Positions 33,474-45,729 of a stretch of DNA of 64,000 nt are shown one piece after another. The position numbers and the translations under genes were made by a program. The DNA comes from Simiduia agarivorans SA1 = DSM 21679. Its GTDB lineage: Bacteria; Pseudomonadota; Gammaproteobacteria; Pseudomonadales; Cellvibrionaceae. Position 1 is the stretch's first letter; each line of letters opens with the position of its first letter. Under the pieces are notes generated by a model, which did no database searches, had not been told where the DNA came from, and saw only the letters and a list, made by a program, of their open reading frames with translations. The stretch is from NCBI RefSeq assembly GCF_000305785.2, contig NC_018868.3:3208270-3272269 (forward strand), given 5' to 3'.

Positions 33474-35006
33474 ATGAAATGTTTAAGTAACACGCATTGC
33501 CCATCGAAGTGGCTCGCTGTATTGCCGCTGGCAATTGCAGCGGCTGGCGTGAGTGCACATGGGTTGATGGTAGATCCGCCCGCCCGCAATGCGGTGTGTG
33601 GATTGAATGAAAAGCCGGACCAGGCGAGTACCCAGGCGTGTGTGGATGCATTCGCAAACGACCCGCAGGGCGGTTATTCCTTTATGAGTGTACTGACCCA
33701 CGATGTAGGGCGCGCTGGCGTAACGCCATTGCCCTCAAATGTCTGCGGATTTGACAGCGAGGTTTGGAATGGCGGTGCCACGCCGTGGGATGTGGCAACC
33801 CAATGGCCAACACAACCTGCGACCGCGGGCCCGGTCGACATCACCTGGAATATTTCCTGGGGCCCGCATTTTGATGACACTGAAGAATTCCGCTACTGGA
33901 TTACCAAACCCGAGTTTGTGTTTGACCCAGCCAAACCGCTCACCTGGGCCGACTTTGAAGAGACGGCGTTTTGTGTACTGAATTACGATGACAAAAACCC
34001 GTCAGCTAACCCGGCGGTCATCGCCGATAAAGCGGCGCAAACGTTTACCACCCAATGCGATCTGCCGGCGCGCTCCGGACACCACGTGGTTTACGGTGAA
34101 TGGGGACGAAATTACTTTACCTATGAGCGTTTTCACGGCTGCATTGACATGGCCTTCGGCAATGGCCCGACGCCGCCTGTTGCGAATGCGCAAGCACTGA
34201 CCACCAACGCCAACCAAACGTTGGCGATCACGCTGAGCGGCCAGGATGCCGATGGTCAGGTAGTGGATTTCAATGTGGTGAGCGCGCCGGCCTCGGGCAG
34301 TCTATCGGGCGCCGGCGCGGATCGGGTATATTCCCCCGCGGTGGATTTTGCGGGCACAGACAGCTTTGCGTTTGTTGCCATCGATAACGACGGGCAATCT
34401 TCTGCGCCGGCCACCGTTGCCATTACGGTGAAAGGCAGTAATCAGGCACCCGTTGCCGTCATCGGTGCTGACATCAACGGTTTGAATGTGATGTTGCATG
34501 CCCACGACTCAACCGACCCAGACAATGATGCGCTAACGTTTGATTGGGATCTGGGTGATGGCAACCTGGCGAGCGGTCCGCACGTGAATCATACCTATGC
34601 CGTGGCCGGCAGTTACCCGGTGGTGTTAACAGCGTCCGATGGCACGGCCAGTTCAACGGCCACGCAAACCATCAGTGTCAGCTCGGCACCGCCTGCCAAT
34701 GGAGTGACCTGTGAGCATGTGATCAATAATGAATGGAACACTGGATTTGTGGCATCGGTTCGCTTAACCAATCACGGTTCGGCGCCGGTCAGTGATTGGT
34801 CTGTGAACTGGGCCTACCCCGCCGGCATCAGCCGAACCAGCGGTTGGAACGCGACGGTGACCGGCACCAATCCTTATACGGCAACCAGTGTGGGATGGAA
34901 CAATAGCGTACCGCCGGGACAAACCGTGGAGTTTGGCATTCAGGCCAGCAAACCCGCAGGCGCCAGCGTGCCCGCGGTAGTGGTGTCGGGGGCAGTGTGT
35001 GAATAA
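33474..35006 (+). CDS. AA10 lytic polysaccharide monooxygenase with CBM2
   Basis: 510 residues. The signal peptide ends AGVSA, so the mature protein starts with His29, the N-terminal copper ligand of LPMOs. The second histidine-brace residue is H132 in SWGPHFDDT. The AA10 domain spans ~29-228 with several cysteines and an axial aromatic near its end (RNYFTYERFHGC). A cadherin-like domain, a PKD domain and a C-terminal CBM2 (~411-510) follow, paralogous to those of the GH9 enzyme. It would oxidatively cleave crystalline cellulose. Confidence 0.93.
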   Translation: MKCLSNTHCPSKWLAVLPLAIAAAGVSAHGLMVDPPARNAVCGLNEKPDQASTQACVDAFANDPQGGYSFMSVLTHDVGRAGVTPLPSNVCGFDSEVWNGGATPWDVATQWPTQPATAGPVDITWNISWGPHFDDTEEFRYWITKPEFVFDPAKPLTWADFEETAFCVLNYDDKNPSANPAVIADKAAQTFTTQCDLPARSGHHVVYGEWGRNYFTYERFHGCIDMAFGNGPTPPVANAQALTTNANQTLAITLSGQDADGQVVDFNVVSAPASGSLSGAGADRVYSPAVDFAGTDSFAFVAIDNDGQSSAPATVAITVKGSNQAPVAVIGADINGLNVMLHAHDSTDPDNDALTFDWDLGDGNLASGPHVNHTYAVAGSYPVVLTASDGTASSTATQTISVSSAPPANGVTCEHVINNEWNTGFVASVRLTNHGSAPVSDWSVNWAYPAGISRTSGWNATVTGTNPYTATSVGWNNSVPPGQTVEFGIQASKPAGASVPAVVVSGAVCE

Positions 35007-35059
35007 ACTTGTTTGAAACTGCACCTATTTTCTCGTTAACGCTGTCTCAGCGTGTTGAT

Positions 35060-35083
35060 GCCCGGCCGTGAGCCGGGCTTTTT
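35060..35083 (+). terminator. Rho-independent terminator after the AA10 gene
   Basis: GCCCGGC pairs with GCCGGGC around CGTGA, followed by five Ts. Confidence 0.85.
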
Positions 35084-35323
35084 AGCGTCCGGTCTCAAAA
35101 AGGTGCCAGCACCTAAGTCTGATTTTGCGTTTCTGTTCTAATAGCGCGGTTGCTGTGCTCTCCACGTTAACAGTTGATGCATTAGCGACAAATTGCCCAC
35201 ATTTTATAATGATTAATGGCGCCTTGTTGAACATAAAAAGTATGAGTGTCGGGCATCACAATCCTACCCGGTTCATACGCGCCATCGTCGGAATTTTTCT
35301 ATAATTCAGTCCCCGATAAACCT
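35084..35323. other. Intergenic region upstream of the sigma54 activator
   Basis: About 240 bases with no gene. TATAAT at 35300-35305 is an ideal -10 hexamer, but no good -35 lies 17 bases upstream. Confidence 0.45.
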
Positions 35324-36637
35324 ATGGATGGGTTTGCTATGTCGCTGGCTGTGTATCCCATGGTTGTGCCGGGTGTGGCTGAAAGTCACCGGGCGCAATG
35401 TCTTGAAAGTTTGCAACAGGCGGGAGTGAGCGTTTGCACTCAGCCATTTCCCTTGAGTCCCTGTCTGGTGGTGGCTTCGGAGTCGTGCAGCGATGAGCCC
35501 GACGTCATTCCGCCGGGTGTTGGCTTAAATTGTCTATTGTGGTTTGGCGCGCCAACCGAAAAATTCTGGCGCCTTGCTTGCCGGTGTAGCTTGTGGCTAT
35601 TGTGGGACGAGCGGCAGGCCTCGCCCGTGCACCCATTAAGAGAAAAGTTGCAAGCGTTGACATCAGCGCAAGCCAATATCGAGCGTGCGCTCGACGCCCA
35701 GGGGCTGGTGGCTCAATCGGCCAGTATGCGACAGGTGCTGTTCCACCTGTACACGGCTGCCCGGCGGGGGGTGGATGTGTTGCTGCAGGGCGAAAGCGGT
35801 ACCGGCAAGGAGCAGTTGGCCCGGCTGTATCACCAATTCCGTCGATGCGACGGTGATCTTGCGACGCTGGATTGTACCACCCTGGATGAAGGGCTGGCCG
35901 GCAGCGAACTCTTTGGCCATGAACGCGGCGCATTCACCAGTGCCCACCGCAGCCGCGACGGCGTGATTGCCGATGCAGACAATGGCACCTTGTTCCTGGA
36001 TGAAATTGGCGATCTGCCGCTGGCGATTCAACCCAAATTATTGCGCACAATCCAGGAGCGGCAATACCGTCGGGTGGGCGGCAATCAATGGATGACCTCA
36101 ACCTTTGGTCTTGTGTGTGCGAGCCACGTGGCATTGGAAAGCGCGGTAGATGCCGGCAATTTCCGATTGGATCTGTATCACCGCATTGCGGCTTGTGTGA
36201 TTATGGTGCCGCCGCTGCGCGAACGGGTGGAAGATATTGTGCCGTTGGCGGAGCATTATTTTGCCAGTCGATGCGGCGATGGCGTGTCGCTCAGTGGGCC
36301 CCTGCGGCAATGGTTGTGTCAATATCATTACCCCGGCAACGTGCGTGAACTCTATCAGCGCTTACGTTTGATTCAGCCTGAAGCCGGTGCCGCGCAGGCG
36401 TGTCTTTCCGATATGGTTATGCCCTGTAGCATTCCGGAGCGCAGCGCAACCGGCGATAACTGGATTCATCAGAGTGTCAGTGCCGGGCTTGGGCTGGACG
36501 CAATTAAAGAGCGTGCTACGCGCGAGGCCAAAGCCAGCGCCCTGCGATTGTGTGATGACAGCTGCAAGCAGGCGGCACAATTATTGGGTGTGAGTGAACG
36601 CACGCTGCAGTTGTATAAATCAGAATTATCTGGCTGA
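35324..36637 (+). CDS. Sigma54-dependent transcriptional activator (enhancer-binding protein)
   Basis: The central AAA+ domain has Walker A (GESGTGKEQLARL), Walker B (NGTLFLDEIGDLPL) and an arginine-finger region (LRERVEDIVPLAEHY). The sigma54-contact loop reads GAFTSA instead of GAFTGA. A Fis-type helix-turn-helix lies at the end (KQAAQLLGVSERTLQLYKSEL). The N-terminal ~140 residues are not a receiver domain and are unrecognised. The start is uncertain: ATG at 35324, ATG at 35339, or a GTG at 35246; I favour one of the ATGs because a TATAAT lies just upstream. Confidence 0.88.
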   Translation: MDGFAMSLAVYPMVVPGVAESHRAQCLESLQQAGVSVCTQPFPLSPCLVVASESCSDEPDVIPPGVGLNCLLWFGAPTEKFWRLACRCSLWLLWDERQASPVHPLREKLQALTSAQANIERALDAQGLVAQSASMRQVLFHLYTAARRGVDVLLQGESGTGKEQLARLYHQFRRCDGDLATLDCTTLDEGLAGSELFGHERGAFTSAHRSRDGVIADADNGTLFLDEIGDLPLAIQPKLLRTIQERQYRRVGGNQWMTSTFGLVCASHVALESAVDAGNFRLDLYHRIAACVIMVPPLRERVEDIVPLAEHYFASRCGDGVSLSGPLRQWLCQYHYPGNVRELYQRLRLIQPEAGAAQACLSDMVMPCSIPERSATGDNWIHQSVSAGLGLDAIKERATREAKASALRLCDDSCKQAAQLLGVSERTLQLYKSELSG

Positions 36638-36675
36638 AAATCATGCATAAAAAGGCTGTATAAAACAGGTGGTAA

Positions 36676-36701
36676 GAAAAAGCCTGCGCACAGCGCAGGC
36701 T
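36676..36701 (-). terminator. Rho-independent terminator of the leftward operon
   Basis: Nine-base stem AGCCTGCGC / GCGCAGGCT with a 3-base loop; on the minus strand it is followed by a run of Ts (36676-36680). It serves the operon 41288-36723. Confidence 0.75.
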
Positions 36702-36722
36702 GGTAAAGATACGAACAGGCGA

Positions 36723-38384
36723 TCAGGCCGCCTGATTCTGAATGCGCGATTTAAGCAGTTTGGCGGGCGCTGTACTGTTCACCTGACCACCCTCCGGCAC
36801 CGAGGCCAGATTGACACCAGTGGCGGCCCGATAGGCGTGCAGGTAGCGTTGGATTTTTGTGCGCCAGTGGTTGGCCCAGTTGGCCGCGTTGGCATCCACC
36901 ACGGTATCGGTATCGGACCAATTGCCAAAGCGGATGCTCAGCAACAGCTGCTCGCCGGTCACCGCCAGCTCGCGGAAGTGATTGGTAGACAGGTCGCCCC
37001 AACCCTGCAATTTACGCATCACATCCACGCGATCCATCCAGGGTTCGGGTTGCGGCACCATCGGGCGGGTATTCAGAAATTCGCGCATTTCCGGCCGCGC
37101 TAACAGCCATTGGCAAATCAGCATTTCCTTGCGCAAGGTCCGTGGCAGATCACCGTATTGGTTGTGCATGCCTTCTGCCAGCAACATGTGGACTTCGCGC
37201 AATGCATGCAGCACGGGGAAGGCATCCGCCACATAACGTTGGTCGTCTACCTGCAAGAAGTAGCGCGAGCAGGTCCACAGCAATTGATGGAAGGCCTGCA
37301 AAAAACGCGAACGACTGTCAGCCGAATGCAGGGGCGGCACGGCTTTGCCTTCGATACTGAAACCGTAGTGGTGATCGTATTCGTAGGCGCGGCGCGCAAG
37401 CCCCAGGCGTGAGCCTTCTTTCTGAATAAAGCCCCACATCAGATTGTTGAGTCGACGCAGCGGATCAAGATTCAGGTTGGCCAGTGGGTCTGCCGTTTTC
37501 AATGCGCGGTTCTGAAACCTGAGCGCAATGGCGTTGATGGATTGCATCAGGCCCGACTCTTCTACCCAGTAACTCCAGATCAGTTCGCAGGGCGTGATAT
37601 AGCGCACCGCATCCAGTGCGATCGTCACTTCAGTGTCGGTCAGGCACGGGTTGGTTTCAATGGCGGTATCCTGCATGCGGCGCAATACCCGTTCCATGTA
37701 GGGCAACACTTTGTAATCCTGATGCTCCACCATGTACTGCCGGTACGCAGAGCCTTTGGCATCGTCGAATTGCGACCAGTCCACTTTGCCTTTGGCCAGG
37801 TTGGCAATATAGCACTCAATGGTTTTGTCGATGATTTCATAACTCTGGGTGCCGCGACCACACAAGTCATCTACCAGTGCCGGGCAACGTTCCACAATTT
37901 CGTCGTCGTGGCAGAGGGACTCCAGGTGTTTGGCCACCTTGTTGTATTGCAATTGATCACTCACGTGTTCGATGTATTTCCATAGCACCTGATCGGTGGT
38001 TTGGGGGATTTCCGGGGTGCCACCGTAAACCGGTCTGGGGCTGGTGATGGGCGCTTGCGTCATCGCGTCGGCGGCTGCCAGTGTCAGCTCCAGTGTGCTG
38101 CCGCCTTTCAGGCTGACACTTTCTCGTCGGGCCAGCTCGCGGAAATCCGAACCGCGGATCGATACGCTGAGCACGCCATCTCCCGATTTCGGGGCGTGTT
38201 GCTTAATCAGTTCATCGGCGTTGAATTCAAACTCTGCCCGGCCTTTTTTGGCGTCGCAGGTTTCAACCACCAGATCGTCGTCGTCGGTTATCAAGTGCAG
38301 ATCGAGCGGGACTTTATCGGTAAAGAGTCCGCCATCCTGGCGCTTGAGGTGTACCGTTAGCTTGGTTGAGTTGGCTTTGCTCAT
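36723..38384 (-). CDS. Operon protein of unknown function (553 aa)
   Basis: Last gene of a five-gene leftward operon. Residues 1-~105 look like a beta-sandwich domain (KLTVHLKRQDGGLF..., VSLKGGSTLELTL). The rest is mostly helical with many Trp and Tyr (IEHVSDQLQYNKVAKHLESL, LIWSYWVEESGLMQ, MWGFIQKEGSRLGLARRAYEY). There is no signal peptide or membrane span. Its start overlaps the stop of the zinc-protease-like gene by 4 bases (ATGA). I do not recognise the family; a structural or carrier role with the protease is only a guess. Confidence 0.75.
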   Translation of the reverse strand: MSKANSTKLTVHLKRQDGGLFTDKVPLDLHLITDDDDLVVETCDAKKGRAEFEFNADELIKQHAPKSGDGVLSVSIRGSDFRELARRESVSLKGGSTLELTLAAADAMTQAPITSPRPVYGGTPEIPQTTDQVLWKYIEHVSDQLQYNKVAKHLESLCHDDEIVERCPALVDDLCGRGTQSYEIIDKTIECYIANLAKGKVDWSQFDDAKGSAYRQYMVEHQDYKVLPYMERVLRRMQDTAIETNPCLTDTEVTIALDAVRYITPCELIWSYWVEESGLMQSINAIALRFQNRALKTADPLANLNLDPLRRLNNLMWGFIQKEGSRLGLARRAYEYDHHYGFSIEGKAVPPLHSADSRSRFLQAFHQLLWTCSRYFLQVDDQRYVADAFPVLHALREVHMLLAEGMHNQYGDLPRTLRKEMLICQWLLARPEMREFLNTRPMVPQPEPWMDRVDVMRKLQGWGDLSTNHFRELAVTGEQLLLSIRFGNWSDTDTVVDANAANWANHWRTKIQRYLHAYRAATGVNLASVPEGGQVNSTAPAKLLKSRIQNQAA

Positions 38385-39712
38385 CGTTCACCTCCTGTTG
38401 GTGATGGATGCATTGAGGGAAGAAAAATACCCGCAGGGGACTTGGCGCCCGCCAGGTAAGTGAGGGGGTGATTGGAAAAACCGGCAAACTGATCCGTGTG
38501 CTTGGGTGAGCTGGCCCAGTAGTTCAGTGCCTGGTCCAATAGCATGGCTTCGCGCTCGGCCGACACGGCATTTTCCAGCCGTGCTAAACCAAGCAATGCA
38601 AATACCCGGGTTGGCCGCCAGTGGCGGATGATGCGCGGATAGCGTAAAAACTGTTGCAAGGGCGCGCGTAACCGCACGGGGTTGACCTGCCCGGTATCAA
38701 ACAAACTGAGCCACGGCTGGCCGTTTACCTGCAGCGTTTGCAGTTGTTCAATAAACCAGGGCATGGCGGCCAACAATTGCTCGGCGTTTTTGCGCGAAAT
38801 CGCCGTGGCGTCGTCCAGCGGATAAACCCGCAGCCAGTGTTGCTCAAGGCGCTTGAAGTGATCGCTGCCAAACAATGCGTAGCCTAAACGACAACTGAGC
38901 ATCACCCGCAACCAGGGCCAGGGGTGCGGATCGTCGAGACCGGTCATTTTAAGTACGAAGGGTTTGGGCAGGCTCATCACTGAAATCAGACCGGTGGTGG
39001 CAGCACAGCCGAGCTTTGCCAGGGCCCAGACATCGGCAATGATCTCCGAGCGCCAGCGCGTCCAGTGATCCTTGGTGGGATGCTGACCCCGGCTTAATTG
39101 TTCGCCGAACAACTGCACCAGGTTCAGCAAGGCCGCGCCCTGGTGGCCGACTTCGTGGTAAAGCGACGCCGCGATACCGGCACCCACCATCCGTTCGCGC
39201 GGAATGCGGATGATCGACACCGGATTCTCTTCACCACTGGGCAGGCGCGTGCGCACCCGTCGGATAGCCGCACCATGGCCGCGATCGAGATAGCAAATCA
39301 TCGCTGGCAATGCCAGGGTTGCGTTGGCTAGTTGAAGAGCATCCTTGGCGGCTACATCGAGCCCACCCAGCCAGGCACCGTAAGTGGCTTCTGAGCGCTG
39401 GTTAAGGGCATCGGCAAAAATGTCCAGCTCCGACAGCACCAGGTTGTACTTCACTTTCAGCGTGCTGTATTCGCGCATCAGTTGATCCGGCGAAAACAGA
39501 TCGCTATTGGCGCGCCGGATAAACAGCTCAAGCGCTTGCGCAACGCGTTTCAGGCCCTGGCCGATATGGTGATCCAGGCGTTGAACCACCCAGGCTCCCG
39601 GGCTGGCAGCGGTACTCATGGGCATGGCGTGGCCGAGTTTCACCACTTTCCGTGCCCGGTGCAGTAGCCCTTGAGCATCCTCGGCCAGCAGTTGATGGCT
39701 GCTCGTGCTCAT
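38381..39712 (-). CDS. Zincin-like metallopeptidase of unknown target (443 aa)
   Basis: The motif HEVGH (residues 186-190, within AGIAASLYHEVGHQGAALL) supplies two zinc histidines and the catalytic glutamate. E223 and D227 in SEIIADVWALAKLG fit the downstream ExxxD of gluzincins, which gives the third ligand. The rest is helical with no signal peptide. It lies between the paralogous acidic proteins and the 553-residue protein, with 2-4 base junctions, so it is co-translated and could process its operon partners. The family is not recognised. Confidence 0.75.
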   Translation of the reverse strand: MSTSSHQLLAEDAQGLLHRARKVVKLGHAMPMSTAASPGAWVVQRLDHHIGQGLKRVAQALELFIRRANSDLFSPDQLMREYSTLKVKYNLVLSELDIFADALNQRSEATYGAWLGGLDVAAKDALQLANATLALPAMICYLDRGHGAAIRRVRTRLPSGEENPVSIIRIPRERMVGAGIAASLYHEVGHQGAALLNLVQLFGEQLSRGQHPTKDHWTRWRSEIIADVWALAKLGCAATTGLISVMSLPKPFVLKMTGLDDPHPWPWLRVMLSCRLGYALFGSDHFKRLEQHWLRVYPLDDATAISRKNAEQLLAAMPWFIEQLQTLQVNGQPWLSLFDTGQVNPVRLRAPLQQFLRYPRIIRHWRPTRVFALLGLARLENAVSAEREAMLLDQALNYWASSPKHTDQFAGFSNHPLTYLAGAKSPAGIFLPSMHPSPTGGER

Positions 39713-39714
39713 GG

Positions 39715-40284
39715 TCAGACTCCGCTGATAATCAGGTGCCTGCCTGCGCGCCGGACCTGACCGCCGGTGGTTGGAGCCGCCGACAAAAACACCTTGCGGG
39801 CCAACGCCGGCGTAATGGTTTGTCCGCGCGCTTTGGCGTTGACCAGCGCACGTGTGCCCTTGTGCATGGCATTGGCCAGTCGGTTCGCGGTCTCATAATC
39901 CAACTCGAGTTCGCGGCTGCTGAAATAGCGGTGGCCGGCACGGGTTGCGGTGTTGACGGCGGCACCGATGGCGGGTGTCAGTAAATCCGAGGCGCCGAGT
40001 TTTTTGGCTAACAAGCTTGCGCCCAGTCCGAGTGCCGAACCCAGGTCGCTGCCCACCCGGCTGTCACGCCAGCCGCCTTTATAGCGCGACTTGAGTGCGT
40101 TTTTCGCCATGGAAAGTAACTTGAATTCGAGTTCCTCTTCGCTGGTGGCTTGCATGAGTGCCTGCGCCGGGTCGTCATGTTCGAATTCAGTATCCGTTTC
40201 GAATTCGAATTCATCGTCGAACTCGTCCATTTCAAACTCGGAGAATGGGTGGTTATCAACGCGAGTGCGGTTAATGGCGTGCAT
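39715..40284 (-). CDS. Acidic/Gly-Ala-rich operon protein C (189 aa)
   Basis: Start at 40284 is set by GGAGA upstream. Residues ~14-40 are very acidic and aromatic (FEMDEFDDEFEFETDTEFE). Then comes EEELEFKLLSMAKNAL, a Gly/Ala-rich segment (~85-115: GSALGLGASLLAKKLGASDLL...IGAAVNTA) and a C-terminus ending GGQVRRAGRHLIISGV. The layout is the same as operon protein A at 40701-41288. No family recognised; the hydrophobic core may insert in a membrane or pack into an assembly. Confidence 0.72.
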   Translation of the reverse strand: MHAINRTRVDNHPFSEFEMDEFDDEFEFETDTEFEHDDPAQALMQATSEEELEFKLLSMAKNALKSRYKGGWRDSRVGSDLGSALGLGASLLAKKLGASDLLTPAIGAAVNTATRAGHRYFSSRELELDYETANRLANAMHKGTRALVNAKARGQTITPALARKVFLSAAPTTGGQVRRAGRHLIISGV

Positions 40285-40696
40285 GGTAATCTCCTGGTCC
40301 TTGGGTTGTGTCTGGTGTGTATAACGCGCTTTGGTGTAGCAATTGTGCGAGTTGTGATAACAACGGCGTGGGCTTATCGGCACGCTTGCGCGCGAGGACG
40401 CGCGCAAGTTTTTTCGACCATTCCAGCGCAGTCGGTTCGATTGCCGGGCTTTCGCCCAGCAATCTGAGCCGGATCAGTTGCGCGGCTGTTACCAGTGCCG
40501 GTTCATCAAGCTGACTGCTGCCCTGGCGCACCTGTTGATGCAGTTCAATCAGGACCGGCGCAATCTCTGCTAAGGACTGATTGAACGACTGCCGGTTGAG
40601 CCAGTGGGCAAAGTCATCGGTAACGGGCTCGCTCGCTGGTGCGGAAACAGGTGCGGATTCCGGCACTCCCGCGTTAGTCAGGTCGACGTCGTGCAT
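40271..40696 (-). CDS. Operon protein B, unknown (141 aa)
   Basis: The start at 40696 follows the stop of protein A by a few bases. 141 residues, helical, with an Ala/Pro/Ser-rich N-terminus (PESAPVSAPASEPV) and a helical middle (FAHWLNRQSFNQSLAEIAPVLIELHQQ). It contains no acidic-aromatic or Gly-Ala core. Its 3' end overlaps the protein C start by 14 bases, so it is tightly coupled. No family recognised. Confidence 0.65.
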   Translation of the reverse strand: MHDVDLTNAGVPESAPVSAPASEPVTDDFAHWLNRQSFNQSLAEIAPVLIELHQQVRQGSSQLDEPALVTAAQLIRLRLLGESPAIEPTALEWSKKLARVLARKRADKPTPLLSQLAQLLHQSALYTPDTTQGPGDYHARH

Positions 40697-40700
40697 GGTG

Positions 40701-41288
40701 TTACCCGCCATAAACGTTCTGCAAAATGATGCGGTTGCCCTTGCGGTACCAACGACCGGACTGGCCGCCAGCGCCACCACCTCGGCGGTTGATTTGTGCC
40801 AGGGCCATCTTCACGCTTTGCTTGGCTGCCTGTGGTGCCGGTGCTGAACGCTGCAACTGCTCGGCATTTTTGGCGGCGACTTTCGCCAACTGCACAATTT
40901 TCTTGGCGGTTTCAAGTTCGGCATCTTCCGGGCTCAGACCTTCCAGTTCCATCTCAAACAGACTGGACGCAAAGCTGCCCAGTTTGCCGCCAATAGCGCC
41001 GCCTATGCCCGGTGCCACCATATTGCCGACGGCGGCGCCCACTGTGGGCAAGGCTTTTTTTGCAATGCCCTTGAGTGCGCCTGTGACCATGCGACCGGTT
41101 TTGGACTTCAGGAATTTGCCCGCACGTTTCACCAGCTTGCCAAAAAAGTAATCCAGCTCTTGTTCGGAGCCGGCGCTCAGGAGTTCGTAGGCAAGTTCCA
41201 GTTCGTCGGCAGATTCAAAATCCTGCTCGTCGTCCCAGCCGCCTTCGTAATCCATTTCAAAATCCAGTTCGTCATCGAGTTCCCACAT
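40701..41288 (-). CDS. Acidic/Gly-Ala-rich operon protein A (195 aa)
   Basis: First gene of the operon; start at 41288 set by AAGGAGATAAATGCA. Residues 1-~50 are strongly acidic and aromatic (WELDDELDFEMDYEGGWDDEQDFE). Next is a basic helix (FFGKLVKRAGKFLKSKTGRM) and a Gly/Ala-rich hydrophobic stretch (~80-115: ALPTVGAAVGNMV...GIGGAIGGKLGS). An acidic helix and a C-terminal GGQSGRWYRKGNRIILQNVYGG-like end follow. The C-terminal pattern G-x-x-R-x-G-x-x-I-I recurs in protein C. I recall similar uncharacterised proteins in other bacteria but no function. Confidence 0.75.
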   Translation of the reverse strand: MWELDDELDFEMDYEGGWDDEQDFESADELELAYELLSAGSEQELDYFFGKLVKRAGKFLKSKTGRMVTGALKGIAKKALPTVGAAVGNMVAPGIGGAIGGKLGSFASSLFEMELEGLSPEDAELETAKKIVQLAKVAAKNAEQLQRSAPAPQAAKQSVKMALAQINRRGGGAGGQSGRWYRKGNRIILQNVYGG

Positions 41289-41329
41289 TGCATTTATCTC
41301 CTTGGGTGTAATAGGGTGAAGGGGATAAA

Positions 41330-41344
41330 TCACAATGTGTGCCA
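41330..41344 (-). promoter_or_regulatory. Sigma54-like promoter of the five-gene operon
   Basis: On the minus strand: TGGCAC (41344-41339), five bases, then GTGA where consensus has TTGC. The -24 element is perfect; the -12 element has its invariant GC as GA. The expected start would be ~41319, giving a ~31-base leader with AAGGAG before the ATG at 41288. The match is suggestive, not proven. Confidence 0.35.
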
Positions 41345-41441
41345 ACTTGTATGTATTTGATTTTGTTGGATTTACTGATTTTATAGCGTGCGCGCGCGCG
41401 AAGATGGTTTCGGCGACGGGTAAAAAAACGAACCAGACTTC

Positions 41442-41491
41442 GCTTGGCGCTGCACGCTATAGATGGGCTTGGCGCTGCGCGCTATGGATGG
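41442..41491 (+). repeat. Tandem 25-bp direct repeat
   Basis: The 25-base unit GCTTGGCGCTGCACGCTATA followed by GATGG (41442-41466) recurs with two differences at 41467-41491, just before the metallo-beta-lactamase start. It may affect its promoter or be recent slippage. Confidence 0.7.
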
Positions 41492-41511
41492 GATGAACAG
41501 GAAGAGGCAGA

Positions 41512-42399
41512 ATGGGCTTACCAAAAGGGTTGCAGTTTTTTTTGTTAGCGCTGCTGGCGATGCCAATGGTCGGGACTCAAGCACAGACTGCGGTAACGGC
41601 GGAGCACTGGGTAGATAGCTGCGCAGACTGGGACGCGTGGGATAAACCGGGTCCGCCGTTCCGGGTATTGGGTAACACTTACTACGTAGGTACCTGCGGC
41701 ATTGCTGCCATATTGATTACCGGCGATGCCGGGCATGTGCTGATCGACAGCGGTACTGACCGGGGCGCCGTGATTGTGCGCGACAATATTGCCCGGCTCG
41801 GATTTTCGCTGTCGGATGTGAAAATCCTATTGCACAGCCATGAGCATATTGACCATGTAGGCGGTATGGCCAGCTTGCAATCGCTTTCGGGTGCAACGCT
41901 CTATGCGTCGCCTGCTGCCGCCGCAGTAATGCGCAATGGTACCGCAGGCGAGGACGACCCGCAGGCGGGCGCGCTGGCGTCTTTCCCGGTGGCGCGCGTT
42001 GGCGGTCTGGTGAACGACGGCGATCAGATTGCGCTGGGCAATCTGCGTTTAACGGCCTACGCCACACCGGGCCACACGCCCGGAGCCTTGAGTTGGCAAT
42101 GGCGCGCGTGCGAAGAGGACCGGTGTACGACGCTGGTGTACGCCGACAGTCTTTCGCCGGTCAGCGCCGAGGGGTATCGCTTCAATGCACACCCTGAATA
42201 CCTGCAAGCCTACCGGCTTGGGTTGGCAACACTTGCCGACCTCGAATGCGATTTGTTGTTAACGCCGCATCCCTCCGCCAGTCAAATGCGGCAGAGACTG
42301 AGTGAGCGGCAATCTTTGGCAGTGCCCGACGCTTGCCGGCAGTATGCCACTGGCATCAGCGCCCGGCTCGCGCAGCGGCTGGCTAGCGAAGCTGACTGA
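41512..42399 (+). CDS. Subclass B3 metallo-beta-lactamase
   Basis: 295 residues with a signal peptide (~1-24, ending TQA), so the enzyme is periplasmic. Zinc ligands are visible: H110-x-H112-x-D114-H115 in LHSHEHIDHVGG, H188 in TPGHTPGALSW and H253 in LLLTPHPSASQ. The TPGHTPGxxxW context and the absence of a Zn2-site cysteine fit subclass B3, which hydrolyses beta-lactams. GAAGAGGCAG precedes the ATG. Nothing about its actual activity can be read from sequence. Confidence 0.9.
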   Translation: MGLPKGLQFFLLALLAMPMVGTQAQTAVTAEHWVDSCADWDAWDKPGPPFRVLGNTYYVGTCGIAAILITGDAGHVLIDSGTDRGAVIVRDNIARLGFSLSDVKILLHSHEHIDHVGGMASLQSLSGATLYASPAAAAVMRNGTAGEDDPQAGALASFPVARVGGLVNDGDQIALGNLRLTAYATPGHTPGALSWQWRACEEDRCTTLVYADSLSPVSAEGYRFNAHPEYLQAYRLGLATLADLECDLLLTPHPSASQMRQRLSERQSLAVPDACRQYATGISARLAQRLASEAD

Positions 42400-42668
42400 T
42401 GGCACTTGTAACCGCGTGCCGGATTGGACGCCAGCTACCTTGCCAAGGCTGCAGCAGCCCGCGGGCTTGATCGACGATCTAACCGGCCTGCGTTGCAGGT
42501 TTGGCTGGCACAGGCGTGCCACTCGGGCGGCCGCCAGCCTTGTCATCTTTTTGCACATTGTTGCGTTTTAGTTCCACAAATTGAACTTTCTTAACCCATC
42601 TTGACTCTTACTGTGGCTATAGTCAGGCGCCCATGATGGGCCGGGTAAAATTTAAAAGTGGAACAACT

Positions 42669-44063
42669 ATGTTGGCAGAAAAATCTATTAAGGGTGCGTT
42701 GAAGGCACTGACATTTATTTCGGTGTTGAGTTTGTTGGTCGGTTGTCTGAACGATGACGACGATGACAGTAGCGACTCGACCAGCTATGGCACGGTTCAG
42801 TTTTACAATGCCAGTAGCAATTCTTCCTCGACGCGTTTTTTAATCGATGCCAGTCTCAAGTCTGTAGTGAGTTTTGGTGATGCCTCATCCCGCATTTCTC
42901 TGGAGCCAGAAACCTATGAGATCTCCATTGAAAGAACCAATGTGGATAATGCCAGTGACTATGTGGAATTGTTGTCCCAGGAAGTGACCATTGCCAATGG
43001 CACAAACCGGTTGTTTGTTATGTCGGGTGAGTTTTCAGCACCCACATTAACAGAGTACTCATTTGACCCCGAAGATGATTTGGAATCGGATGAATTGGCC
43101 TTGATGGGATTTAATCTCACCAGTGAATACGCCCAGCTTGAAATTTATTATGGACCAACCGATGGCGATCAGACATCGGCGACTTTGTTGGCCACTCTGG
43201 GCAATCAGGCGCAGTCTGAATTTGTCGCGCTGGACGCTGATGATTACTTGTTTTATGTGGTGGACGCCGACAGTGGCGATACCCTTTTAACAACCAAGTC
43301 TGTGCCCTTTACCGGTGGTTACAACTATTTTGTCATCGTGCGCGATGATGTGGTTAACGGCGGTATCTCATTGGATCAGATGTCCAGCTCTACGTTCGTT
43401 TACAACTATCCCAATCCGGAGGCGAATGCCCAGGTCCGGGCTTACCAGTCCATCGACAATCTGAATGCGGTGGATTTGACGCTGGCGGGAGCAGGCGAGG
43501 ATTTTGCTGAAAACGCGCTGGCGATCGACACCCTGTCTGAATTTATTACCCTGCCGTATGGGGATTATCTGATGCGCCTCTCGGCCGCGGGCAATCCCGA
43601 TGAAACCCATTTGCAGAATAAACTGGTGTCACTCCAGCCGGGCGCCGCAAAAAACGTCCTGTTTTATCGCAACAGCAACGCTGCGGTCGCAGCCCTGGTG
43701 TATAGCCAGGACATGCGCGCAAGGGTGTATGAGCACGATATCAATCTGGTCAGCCTGTCGGACATACGGGATGCAGACGGCGATCGGTATCTGTTGCGAG
43801 CCTATTTTGTGAACGAAGAGAAGGGTGAAACCAAAGAAACGGCTTCTCAGGTGGTCACGGGCATCGAGTTTGCCAGCGTTGAAAACTTTACCCTGGTCAC
43901 GGGTAATTATGCGGTTTATCTGATGTACACCGATGAGGATAACCAGGAACACCTGGCGGCCGAGAAAACCCAGTTAAACCTGGAAGCCAGCACCAACTAC
44001 CAATTGATACTGGAGCCGGACGAGACTGTCTACACGGGTTATCGCCTGTCGGTCTTGCACTGA
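42669..44063 (+). CDS. DUF4397-type lipoprotein 1
   Basis: The start at 42669 gives 464 residues. The N-terminus (MLAEKSIKGALKALTF...LSLLVGC) is a lipoprotein signal with cysteine in a LVGC lipobox, followed by an acidic tail DDDDDSSDS. The mature part repeats a ~100-residue beta-rich unit (VQFYNASSNSSSTRF..., LEIYYGPTDGDQ..., VRAYQSIDN...), as in DUF4397 surface proteins. The paralogue at 44278 lies directly downstream. The function is unknown; it is expected in the outer membrane or periplasm. Confidence 0.82.
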   Translation: MLAEKSIKGALKALTFISVLSLLVGCLNDDDDDSSDSTSYGTVQFYNASSNSSSTRFLIDASLKSVVSFGDASSRISLEPETYEISIERTNVDNASDYVELLSQEVTIANGTNRLFVMSGEFSAPTLTEYSFDPEDDLESDELALMGFNLTSEYAQLEIYYGPTDGDQTSATLLATLGNQAQSEFVALDADDYLFYVVDADSGDTLLTTKSVPFTGGYNYFVIVRDDVVNGGISLDQMSSSTFVYNYPNPEANAQVRAYQSIDNLNAVDLTLAGAGEDFAENALAIDTLSEFITLPYGDYLMRLSAAGNPDETHLQNKLVSLQPGAAKNVLFYRNSNAAVAALVYSQDMRARVYEHDINLVSLSDIRDADGDRYLLRAYFVNEEKGETKETASQVVTGIEFASVENFTLVTGNYAVYLMYTDEDNQEHLAAEKTQLNLEASTNYQLILEPDETVYTGYRLSVLH

Positions 44064-44277
44064 TCCGGTGGCGCCTACCGGCGCCGGCTGCGCCCGGCGC
44101 CTGTTGGCAGGGTGTAGGTCAGGGCGGACCTTGCCCTTTTCCGACCGGCAGGTCATGGCCGTTTCGGCCTGAAAGCCCGGTTTGCCGCACCTGCGAGCCG
44201 ATTAGGCTCGACTTGCCAGTTGAAGCCATTACAATGGCCCATTCCGCCGATTGGCGTGTCAGTAATGATTGGGATAG

Positions 44278-45729
44278 ATGATGAGTTGGTTAAAAAACAG
44301 GCTGCTTGCCTTGGGAACGCTGGCTGTGGCGACGGCCATGGTGTTGTCGGGGTGTTTGGGTGATGACAACAATAACCGGAATTCCAGCTCGGGTGTTTTT
44401 GGCCGCGTGCAGTTCTATAACGCGGTGGCGGATAGCCCAAAGGTCATGTTTGAGTTGCCCGATGGCCGGTTAGTCGGCAATGGTCAGCGCGAGGACTGGA
44501 ATGTGGTTGCCGGTTATGGCCGGGGCAGTCAGCGTTTGGCGATTACGCCGAATGAGTACAGTCTGAATGTATACCGGCTCGGAGCTGTTTCAGGCGAATA
44601 CGATCAACTTTTGTTGAACCAGCCACTGACCGTAGTGGATGGCGTGCATCAGTTTATTGTAATGACTGGCGATTTCAGTGCACCTGCCCTGAAGACATTT
44701 ACCTATTCGACCAACACTGACCGCGATGCGTTGAATTTTGATTTACGGGTGCTCAATTTTACCTCGGACTATGCCCAAATCGAGGTGTTATACGGGGCGG
44801 AAGGTGGCGCGCTGGAAGATGCGACCTTGCACGCCACTATCAGTCAAACGGAGGCCTCCGAGTTTGAAGAGCTGGGTGAAGGTCGCTACACCCTGTATGT
44901 GGTGGATGCAGACACCGGTAATCTGCTGCTGACCACGGAGCCCATGTCTTTTGTCCGCAATAATACCTATTTTGTCAGTGTGCGCGATGATCTTGCGACA
45001 GGTGGTGTGATTGTCGATCAGCTCAATGCCAGCGGGTTTGTGTACAGCTACGGCGTGCCCCAAACCCAGGGGCAGGTGCGGATCTATCACTCTCTGGAAG
45101 ATATTGGCTCGGTTGATGTGGCGTTGGTGGGCGATCAGGATGAAGCCACAATCCCCAATGCAGCCGCAGATCAGTTTTCTCCTGCTGTTGCACTGGAGGC
45201 GGGGACTTATTCGTTGACCATCACTGCCAGCGGCGCCAGCGACAGCATCATCGAAGATGTAAACGTGGCGGTTCCAGCGGGTCAAGGGCGTGATCTGGCG
45301 ACGCTTCGCTATGATGGCGAAGTGAAAGTGTTGAGCTATGTGCGTGAATTGCTGACCAATGCCTACGAGAGTCAGGTCAATATCATGAACCTGGCCGATG
45401 TGCGGGATGACGAGGATGAACCCGAGCTTCTGAAATTTTATCTGGTGCCTTCGGACAGCTATACCGGCGATCCTGCAGTGGATAAGCCATTGGGTATTGG
45501 CTTAACAAAAATGTCCACCGGCACCGTGGTGAATGCCACGCTGACACCGGATGACTACTACGTTTATGTGGCTTATGAAGTTACTGAAACCGTGGGTGAT
45601 ACTACCACCACCGTCGATGTCGATTTGATCGACGGGCAAATGATCAGCATTGTGTCGGGGGTTAATAATCAATTAATTTTTGAGCCCGATTCTACCCAGC
45701 CAAGCGGATATCGATTAACGCTTTACTGA
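44278..45729 (+). CDS. DUF4397-type lipoprotein 2
   Basis: 483 residues from the ATG at 44278 (a second ATG follows at once). Lipobox LSGC with acidic/Asn-rich DDNNNRNSSS after the cysteine. It shares with the upstream gene the pattern FGRVQFYNAVADSPK..., LDFEV-type strands and VRIYHSLEDIGSVDVAL, and the same length class. The two are clearly duplicates. A terminator follows. Role unknown. Confidence 0.82.
   Translation: MMSWLKNRLLALGTLAVATAMVLSGCLGDDNNNRNSSSGVFGRVQFYNAVADSPKVMFELPDGRLVGNGQREDWNVVAGYGRGSQRLAITPNEYSLNVYRLGAVSGEYDQLLLNQPLTVVDGVHQFIVMTGDFSAPALKTFTYSTNTDRDALNFDLRVLNFTSDYAQIEVLYGAEGGALEDATLHATISQTEASEFEELGEGRYTLYVVDADTGNLLLTTEPMSFVRNNTYFVSVRDDLATGGVIVDQLNASGFVYSYGVPQTQGQVRIYHSLEDIGSVDVALVGDQDEATIPNAAADQFSPAVALEAGTYSLTITASGASDSIIEDVNVAVPAGQGRDLATLRYDGEVKVLSYVRELLTNAYESQVNIMNLADVRDDEDEPELLKFYLVPSDSYTGDPAVDKPLGIGLTKMSTGTVVNATLTPDDYYVYVAYEVTETVGDTTTTVDVDLIDGQMISIVSGVNNQLIFEPDSTQPSGYRLTLY

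Follow-up and report, generated by a model that had tools for sequence, protein, structure and literature searches.

Bacteriocins and other antimicrobial peptides with acidic propieces combine an acidic leader, a cationic, Gly-rich amphipathic core and a maturation protease. Other systems that invite comparison with the locus considered here are holin-endolysin systems, type 10 secretion among them, regulators of the RtcR type and, in an excerpt of PMC7159879 that cites Haft and Basu (2011), a zincin-like peptidase with FxSxx-COOH precursors. The locus lies in a 64,000-nucleotide stretch of the Simiduia agarivorans SA1 = DSM 21679 genome (assembly GCF_000305785.2, contig NC_018868.3, forward-strand positions 3,208,270 to 3,272,269), hereafter the window, in whose coordinates features are given. 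It consists of an operon of five genes, designated A, B, C, Z and D, and a convergent activator gene, R. Comparison with relatives gives good support to the view that A, Z, D and R form one inherited system; what that system does is proposed below from its sequences. The gene set is mobile and horizontally acquired, and the version in the window is minimal and cargo-free. The genes are as follows:

40701..41288, minus strand: gene A, 195 residues, with an acidic N-terminus, a cationic Gly/Ala core and a C-terminal GxWxRxGxxII-like motif
40271..40696, minus strand: gene B, 141 residues, an orphan with the start MHDVDLT
39715..40284, minus strand: gene C, 189 residues, a divergent paralogue of A
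38381..39712, minus strand: gene Z, 443 residues, a gluzincin-type metalloprotease candidate with HEVGH (186-190) and SExxAD (E223)
36723..38384, minus strand: gene D, 553 residues, with a predicted, mainly helical core at about residues 120-553 and conserved His and Glu
35246..36637, plus strand: gene R, a sigma-54 activator, convergent to the operon

The tight operon observed in the original prediction, which was made from the letters of the DNA alone, is real and proves more extensive than described there: A-B-C-Z-D run head to tail on the minus strand, with gaps of 4 bases (A/B) and 2 bases (C/Z) and overlaps of 14 bases (B/C) and 4 bases (Z/D). Its remark that no known system matches is likewise supported: none of the five proteins has a convincing match in Pfam, NCBIfam, PADLOC or PHROG (for B, the 146-residue form was scanned against Pfam and NCBIfam and the 141-residue form against PADLOC and PHROG). 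The library matches of A and C are weak (E 0.005 or worse), and the PADLOC models of known anti-phage defence give zero matches to any of the five at E <= 0.01. Among the 120 matches listed for each of Z, D and A, most are unnamed or labelled 'hypothetical' or 'uncharacterized protein'; some A matches carry the label DUF697 and one UPF0352, and one D match is named 8-amino-7-oxononanoate synthase, a label that suits the neighbouring gene E of other loci (see below), not D.

Homologues are numerous: 3,099 for Z at E <= 0.001 (about 8,000 candidates scored), 3,053 for D at E <= 0.001 (7,997 scored) and 422 for A at E <= 0.01 (1,297 scored). We compared 80 loci, the best 80 of 206 from a genome scan, which by their record titles span at least eight phyla (Bacteroidota, Pseudomonadota, Acidobacteriota, Verrucomicrobiota, Planctomycetota, Chloroflexota, Nitrospirota and Gemmatimonadota). 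Profiles run on six-frame segments placed an A match no more than 4 kb upstream of Z, on Z's own strand, in 79 of the 80 loci (123 copies in all), and D downstream of Z in 78; in the three misses for A or D (L041, L009 and L052), Z sits at a contig end. The co-occurrence of A and C with the zincin, on the absence of which the original prediction was to fall, is borne out by the neighbourhoods, and two Thiothrix loci have A, then a C-like, A-family copy scoring 96-100 bits, and then Z. The layout is repeated in three plasmid loci and one further genome. Among 369 gammaproteobacteria sampled, D occurs in 4 genomes, strong A matches occur in the same 4, and Z occurs in those 4 plus one divergent case; a fifth genome with one weak, partial A match has neither D nor Z.

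What did not survive is the notion of a fixed set of five genes. Elsewhere the layout is A(1-3)-Z-D, often followed by gene E, accessory genes and gene F, and then by R, encoded on the opposite strand. For B, no convincing homologue turned up among 13,709 open reading frame (ORF) segments of the 80 loci (best match E 0.4), and its supposed role as a conserved helper is rejected on that ground. R, which the five-gene account had missed, belongs to the system: genes of its cluster are present in 55 of the 80 loci, and in 48, as in the window, R lies downstream of Z and is encoded on the opposite strand. The same clustering places E, a BioF-like enzyme, in 47 loci, the amidohydrolase F in 44 and the M20 dipeptidase G in 15. 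These figures for R, E, F and G are rough, since the clustering relied on single linkage and on a crude ORF caller: Z was called in only 73 of the 80 loci, and the A cluster, of 133 members, contains 20 that have no A-profile match and joined through peptidoglycan-binding or other parts. The counts for A and D come from the profile recount, which strengthens the claim of a unit and has no bearing on mechanism. The BioF/serine-palmitoyltransferase-like enzyme and the amidohydrolase (for example L054:13492-14604 and L051:15178-16008) recur in the cassettes and are absent from the window operon.

At the margin of the family, loci L101 (3892-11530) and L103 (7558-9954) carry a very divergent Z directly preceded by a protein that is acidic and then cationic, as judged by eye, and that escapes the A profile; L101 additionally encodes a cargo-like protein of 791 residues. 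A phage origin is unsupported, as Z has no match at E <= 1e-5 in 50,697 phage records and none among 90 pattern matches in viral contigs.

A and C are alike in layout, as had been predicted. Against a profile of 29 A-family rows from which C was left out, C scores 20.8 bits, and the highest score among 1,000 shuffles of C is 7.8; because C outscores all shuffles, the likeness goes beyond shared composition, and C is by this measure a divergent paralogue of A. Both proteins are bipolar, with net charges of -20 in the N-terminal 50 residues, +11 in the 60-residue core and +5 in the tail of A, and of -16, +7 and +7 in the corresponding parts of C. The pattern is general, judging from 120 listed homologues (the window's own among them), of which 103 could be segmented: median values are 68 residues and net -22 for the N-terminus, 60 residues, net +9 and 38% Gly+Ala for the core, and +6 for the tail, and 99% of these proteins have an N-terminal charge of -8 or lower and 99% a core charge of +3 or higher. 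The A profile matches A and C alone in the whole genome of the window at E <= 1. B resembles A solely in its start, which is close to the MHDIDRT start of many A proteins. Polyprotein-like chains occur in L035, L047 and L019 (long proteins) and in L065, L070, L072 and L077, with internal A modules that end in a GRWxRRGxxI-like motif followed by further sequence, or with two tandem A modules; they look as if they are cut into units.

The reading of Z as gluzincin-like is upheld by its zinc site, in which H186, E187, H190 and E223 are invariant in 34 of 34 aligned homologues, with the HEVGHQ and SExxAD signatures invariant or nearly so across the same set. In gluzincins, an ExxAD signature marks the Glu ligand, and in both the sequence and the AlphaFold2 model of Z (mean predicted local distance difference test score 88) an HExxH motif is joined by a downstream Glu, the predicted ligand, on a following helix, the zinc-site residues lying on helices 178-195 and 214-234. 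Z has zero matches in Pfam and NCBIfam, where a scan of the 34 members gave weak family matches at most (for example, Zn_peptidase with E 0.047 in one), and sequence searches of the PDB returned nothing significant, nor did the model match a known fold; neither a named peptidase family nor a solved relative is assigned. By its zinc-site signature, Z is a metalloprotease candidate. An alignment of 62 D sequences shows a common core in which E, W, R, N, G and further residues are invariant and His is nearly so at H338, H366, H399, H407 and H516. The AlphaFold2 model of D is mainly helical in its core, which begins at about residue 120, and fold searches in PDB and viral libraries gave nothing significant for it. 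D may be an enzyme.

R matches the AAA+ family Sigma54_activat (PF00158) with E 4e-51 and HTH_23 with E 8e-5, the latter below that family's cut-off, and so has the AAA+ and helix-turn-helix (HTH) parts of a bacterial enhancer-binding protein. These parts are nearest to the RtcR and PspF types, while the N-terminal domain is different and variable: R scores 228.9 bits against the RtcR equivalog, for which the cut-off is 650, and the CARF part of RtcR-type models has no alignment to R, the matches beginning at model positions 148-181. Sigma-54 promoters have a -24/-12 consensus, and candidate control elements stand upstream of A:

41329..41344, minus strand: sigma-54-like -24/-12 element TGGCACACATTGTGAT, about 56 bases upstream of A, with an imperfect -12
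41382..41491, both orientations: repeated CACGCTATAG-like elements, candidate activator sites

A near-consensus element precedes the first A gene in many relatives: with score weights that we set ourselves, of the 59 upstream regions compared, 58 from the loci and one from the window, 34 reach 10.9 or more, where shuffles predict 0.52. Taken together, these sequences support well the view that R and sigma-54 switch on A-B-C-Z-D. The CACGCTATAG-like elements, which sit 100-200 bases upstream of A, may be the sites at which the activator binds. They lie between A and a divergent lactamase gene and include a 25-base tandem repeat (41442-41491) and, near 41382-41391, a partial copy of it in inverted orientation.

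Accessory genes, absent from the window operon, give the fuller versions their cargo. We listed 139 accessory ORFs downstream of D and scanned 53 from 40 loci at E <= 0.01, finding 23 matches to PG_binding_1, 8 to trypsin, 5 to OmpA, 4 to Amidase_2, two each to muramidase, M74, M23 and GIY-YIG, and single matches that include VanY, M15, YkuD, PLD, LCAT and Beta-lactamase2; the 53 include one M20 peptidase and perhaps some neighbours that have nothing to do with the cassette. By eye, the N-termini of the accessory proteins are acidic and unlike signal peptides, and the D+E fraction of the first 60 residues is 0.29 in A, 0.15 in accessory ORFs and 0.09 in flanking genes. Within 60 residues of the N-terminus, a motif, [FLIYM][EDNRK]xxP[FLWMED], is present in 31 of 101 accessory ORFs (shuffles 9.1) and in 32 of 93 upstream A-cluster proteins (5.3), and is at chance in core proteins (15 of 311; 14.4); in the later loci L093, L094 and L102, 2 of 4 accessory proteins fit by eye. 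Profile matches place an internal A module in nine long proteins (L019, L028, L033, L034, L035, L037, L038, L046 and L047), where it is preceded by peptidoglycan-binding or GIY-YIG-like parts, assigned by eye except in L037, whose scan gave PG_binding_1 and Amidase_2.

We therefore favour, tentatively and with somewhat less than even confidence, the interpretation that the cassette is a mobile, inducible device for breaching cell envelopes, in which Z would mature A and C into membrane-active units that admit lytic enzymes. A signal would act through R to start sigma-54 transcription of A-B-C-Z-D. A and C would start as bipolar precursors, the acidic N-terminus neutralising the cationic, Gly-rich, membrane-seeking core until cleavage by Z releases the membrane-active units. 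In the fuller versions, swappable peptidoglycan hydrolases, proteases and lipases would be recruited to the lesion, where they would attack the envelope, with A playing a holin- or bacteriocin-like part and the cargo an endolysin- or effector-like part. D would be a dedicated partner or an enzyme, and the target could be a rival or the producer itself, with release by lysis. Co-inheritance and, in many relatives, the promoter type can be read from the sequences; cleavage, membrane-active units and cargo delivery are what we infer from them.

Several points weigh against this interpretation. The window operon has no cargo, and the A profile finds A and C alone genome-wide, so that the lytic step may not apply in the window's genome. 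The window's promoter element scores 9.9 of a possible 12.9, a value that 7.5% of its shuffles reach. The 53 scanned proteins were hand-picked. The definition of the N-terminal motif was post hoc and came from the very loci in which it was counted, several of which are closely related; the motif is slightly over chance in flanking genes too (36 of 570, against 26.2). No exporter-like family was noticed among the clusters present in at least 10 loci, part of which are annotated, and no immunity gene was identified. Lysis leaves the BioF-like enzyme (47/80), the amidohydrolase (44) and the M20 dipeptidase (15) unexplained, and peptidoglycan hydrolases can equally serve wall remodelling. Finally, the pairwise distances, which speak for one unit in that they correlate between Z and D (0.67), E (0.87), R (0.81) and A (0.50), can also do so through shared descent.

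A more specific form of the envelope-breaching interpretation seems to us doubtful, if worth stating: an undescribed bacterial lytic apparatus in which a sigma-54-inducible mobile kit uses a zincin to activate charge-neutralised, lesion-forming precursors; an N-terminal sorting motif would be common to these precursors and to exchangeable lytic enzymes, and the lesion could then serve to deliver whichever enzyme bears it. In its logic, such a zincin-activated kit would resemble a granule of antimicrobial peptides and lysozyme. The acidic-aromatic N-termini (strongest in A, weaker in the accessory ORFs), the Gly/Ala-rich core of A, the several A copies often found per locus (123 at 79 loci) and the lack of a noticed exporter would also suit an intracellular compartment, in which A's opposite charges and acidic cargo tags condense into an enzyme-storing granule or shell, with D as scaffold and Z as remodeller. 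We consider this unlikely: the recognised accessory domains are mostly extracytoplasmic hydrolases, and D has no significant PDB or viral fold match, which is weak evidence. A defence or programmed-death role, in which R would sense internal damage as RtcR relatives do and the cassette would lyse or permeabilise its producer, stopping phage or releasing products, is less probable again; the AAA+/HTH part of R and the compact, island-borne, patchily distributed gene set speak for it, but the CARF part of RtcR-type models is not aligned to R, and A, B, C, Z and D have no PADLOC match. Remodelling of the wall or surface, with A as a structural surface protein trimmed by Z and peptidoglycan enzymes adjusting the wall, would account for the peptidoglycan-binding and OmpA domains in the cargo, but is the least probable; a patchy distribution and unrelated cargo (GIY-YIG, LCAT, PLD and trypsin) ill suit housekeeping.

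The cassette belongs to an island, which also holds a lactamase gene:

35007..42632, both strands: island with R, D, Z, C, B, A and SAM, 7.6 kb, absent between the same flanks in a sister genome
41512..42399, plus strand: full-length subclass B3 metallo-beta-lactamase of the SAM family, divergent from A, a candidate member only

The genes that flank the island, a chitin-binding gene (33474-35006) and the gene at 42633, have homologues that adjoin in the sister genome; 35007-42632 is therefore an extra 7.6 kb in the window genome. Among 97 genomes in a search of relatives, Z occurs in its own genome only. The lactamase (SAM, Simiduia agarivorans metallo-beta-lactamase, as named in an excerpt of PMC10740994) has zero matches at E <= 1e-60 in 18 other relatives searched; the Beta-lactamase2 domain noted above lies in one accessory protein of another cassette. 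No clear repeats were found at the island ends, and a foreign base composition was not seen, the operon having 57.6% GC against 54.9% in the window. Beyond the island, 42633-45729 on the plus strand holds two related adjacent genes (476 and 483 residues), and the sister genome has two adjacent relatives of the first at the same place. As to effectors of a contractile injection system, the window genome lacks the sheath family PF04984, which need not cover the sheaths of type VI secretion systems and is found in 3 of 14 control genomes; a TssK-family gene is located more than 2 Mb from the operon.

Two families, Z and D, each with more than 3,000 scored homologues and no match in the libraries searched, are now tied to a regulator, a promoter type, a precursor family and cargo, and thousands of hypothetical proteins become one testable system. 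If the favoured interpretation is right, the system offers a new way to mature membrane-active proteins and carry lytic enzymes across membranes, with the short N-terminal motif as a candidate cargo-delivery signal; the spread over distant phyla suggests a role in environmental bacterial competition or lysis. In searches of the open PubMed Central literature no paper was recognised as describing the cassette, subscription papers and preprints being outside that scope.

Among the known systems, RtcR-type activators share with R the AAA+ and HTH part; R differs in its N-terminal domain, in a score far below the RtcR cut-off and in its place within a cassette. Acidic-propiece bacteriocins have all three of their features in common with the cassette, whereas the A proteins are much longer, and no leader-peptidase exporter or immunity gene was noticed. 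The FxSxx-COOH zincin system, as far as the excerpt of PMC7159879 describes it, likewise sets a dedicated zincin beside a variable precursor, but its precursors and C-terminal motif differ from those of the cassette, and it is tied to conflict systems, whereas the cassette is tied to sigma-54 control, D and lytic cargo. Holin-endolysin and type 10 secretion systems, including the holin-endolysin fusions that appear in an excerpt of PMC9527704, resemble the cassette in pairing a small, membrane-active-looking protein with a peptidoglycan hydrolase that, by eye, has no obvious signal peptide, a linkage seen in many relatives and not in the window operon; the fusions have a counterpart in A modules that share one chain with peptidoglycan hydrolases. 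A recognisable holin was not found in the cassette, where PHROG gave one weak match (phrog_126 to C, E 0.089). In contrast to holin-endolysin systems, the cassette has its own protease, D and sigma-54 control, and its cargo extends to proteases, lipases and nuclease-like domains.

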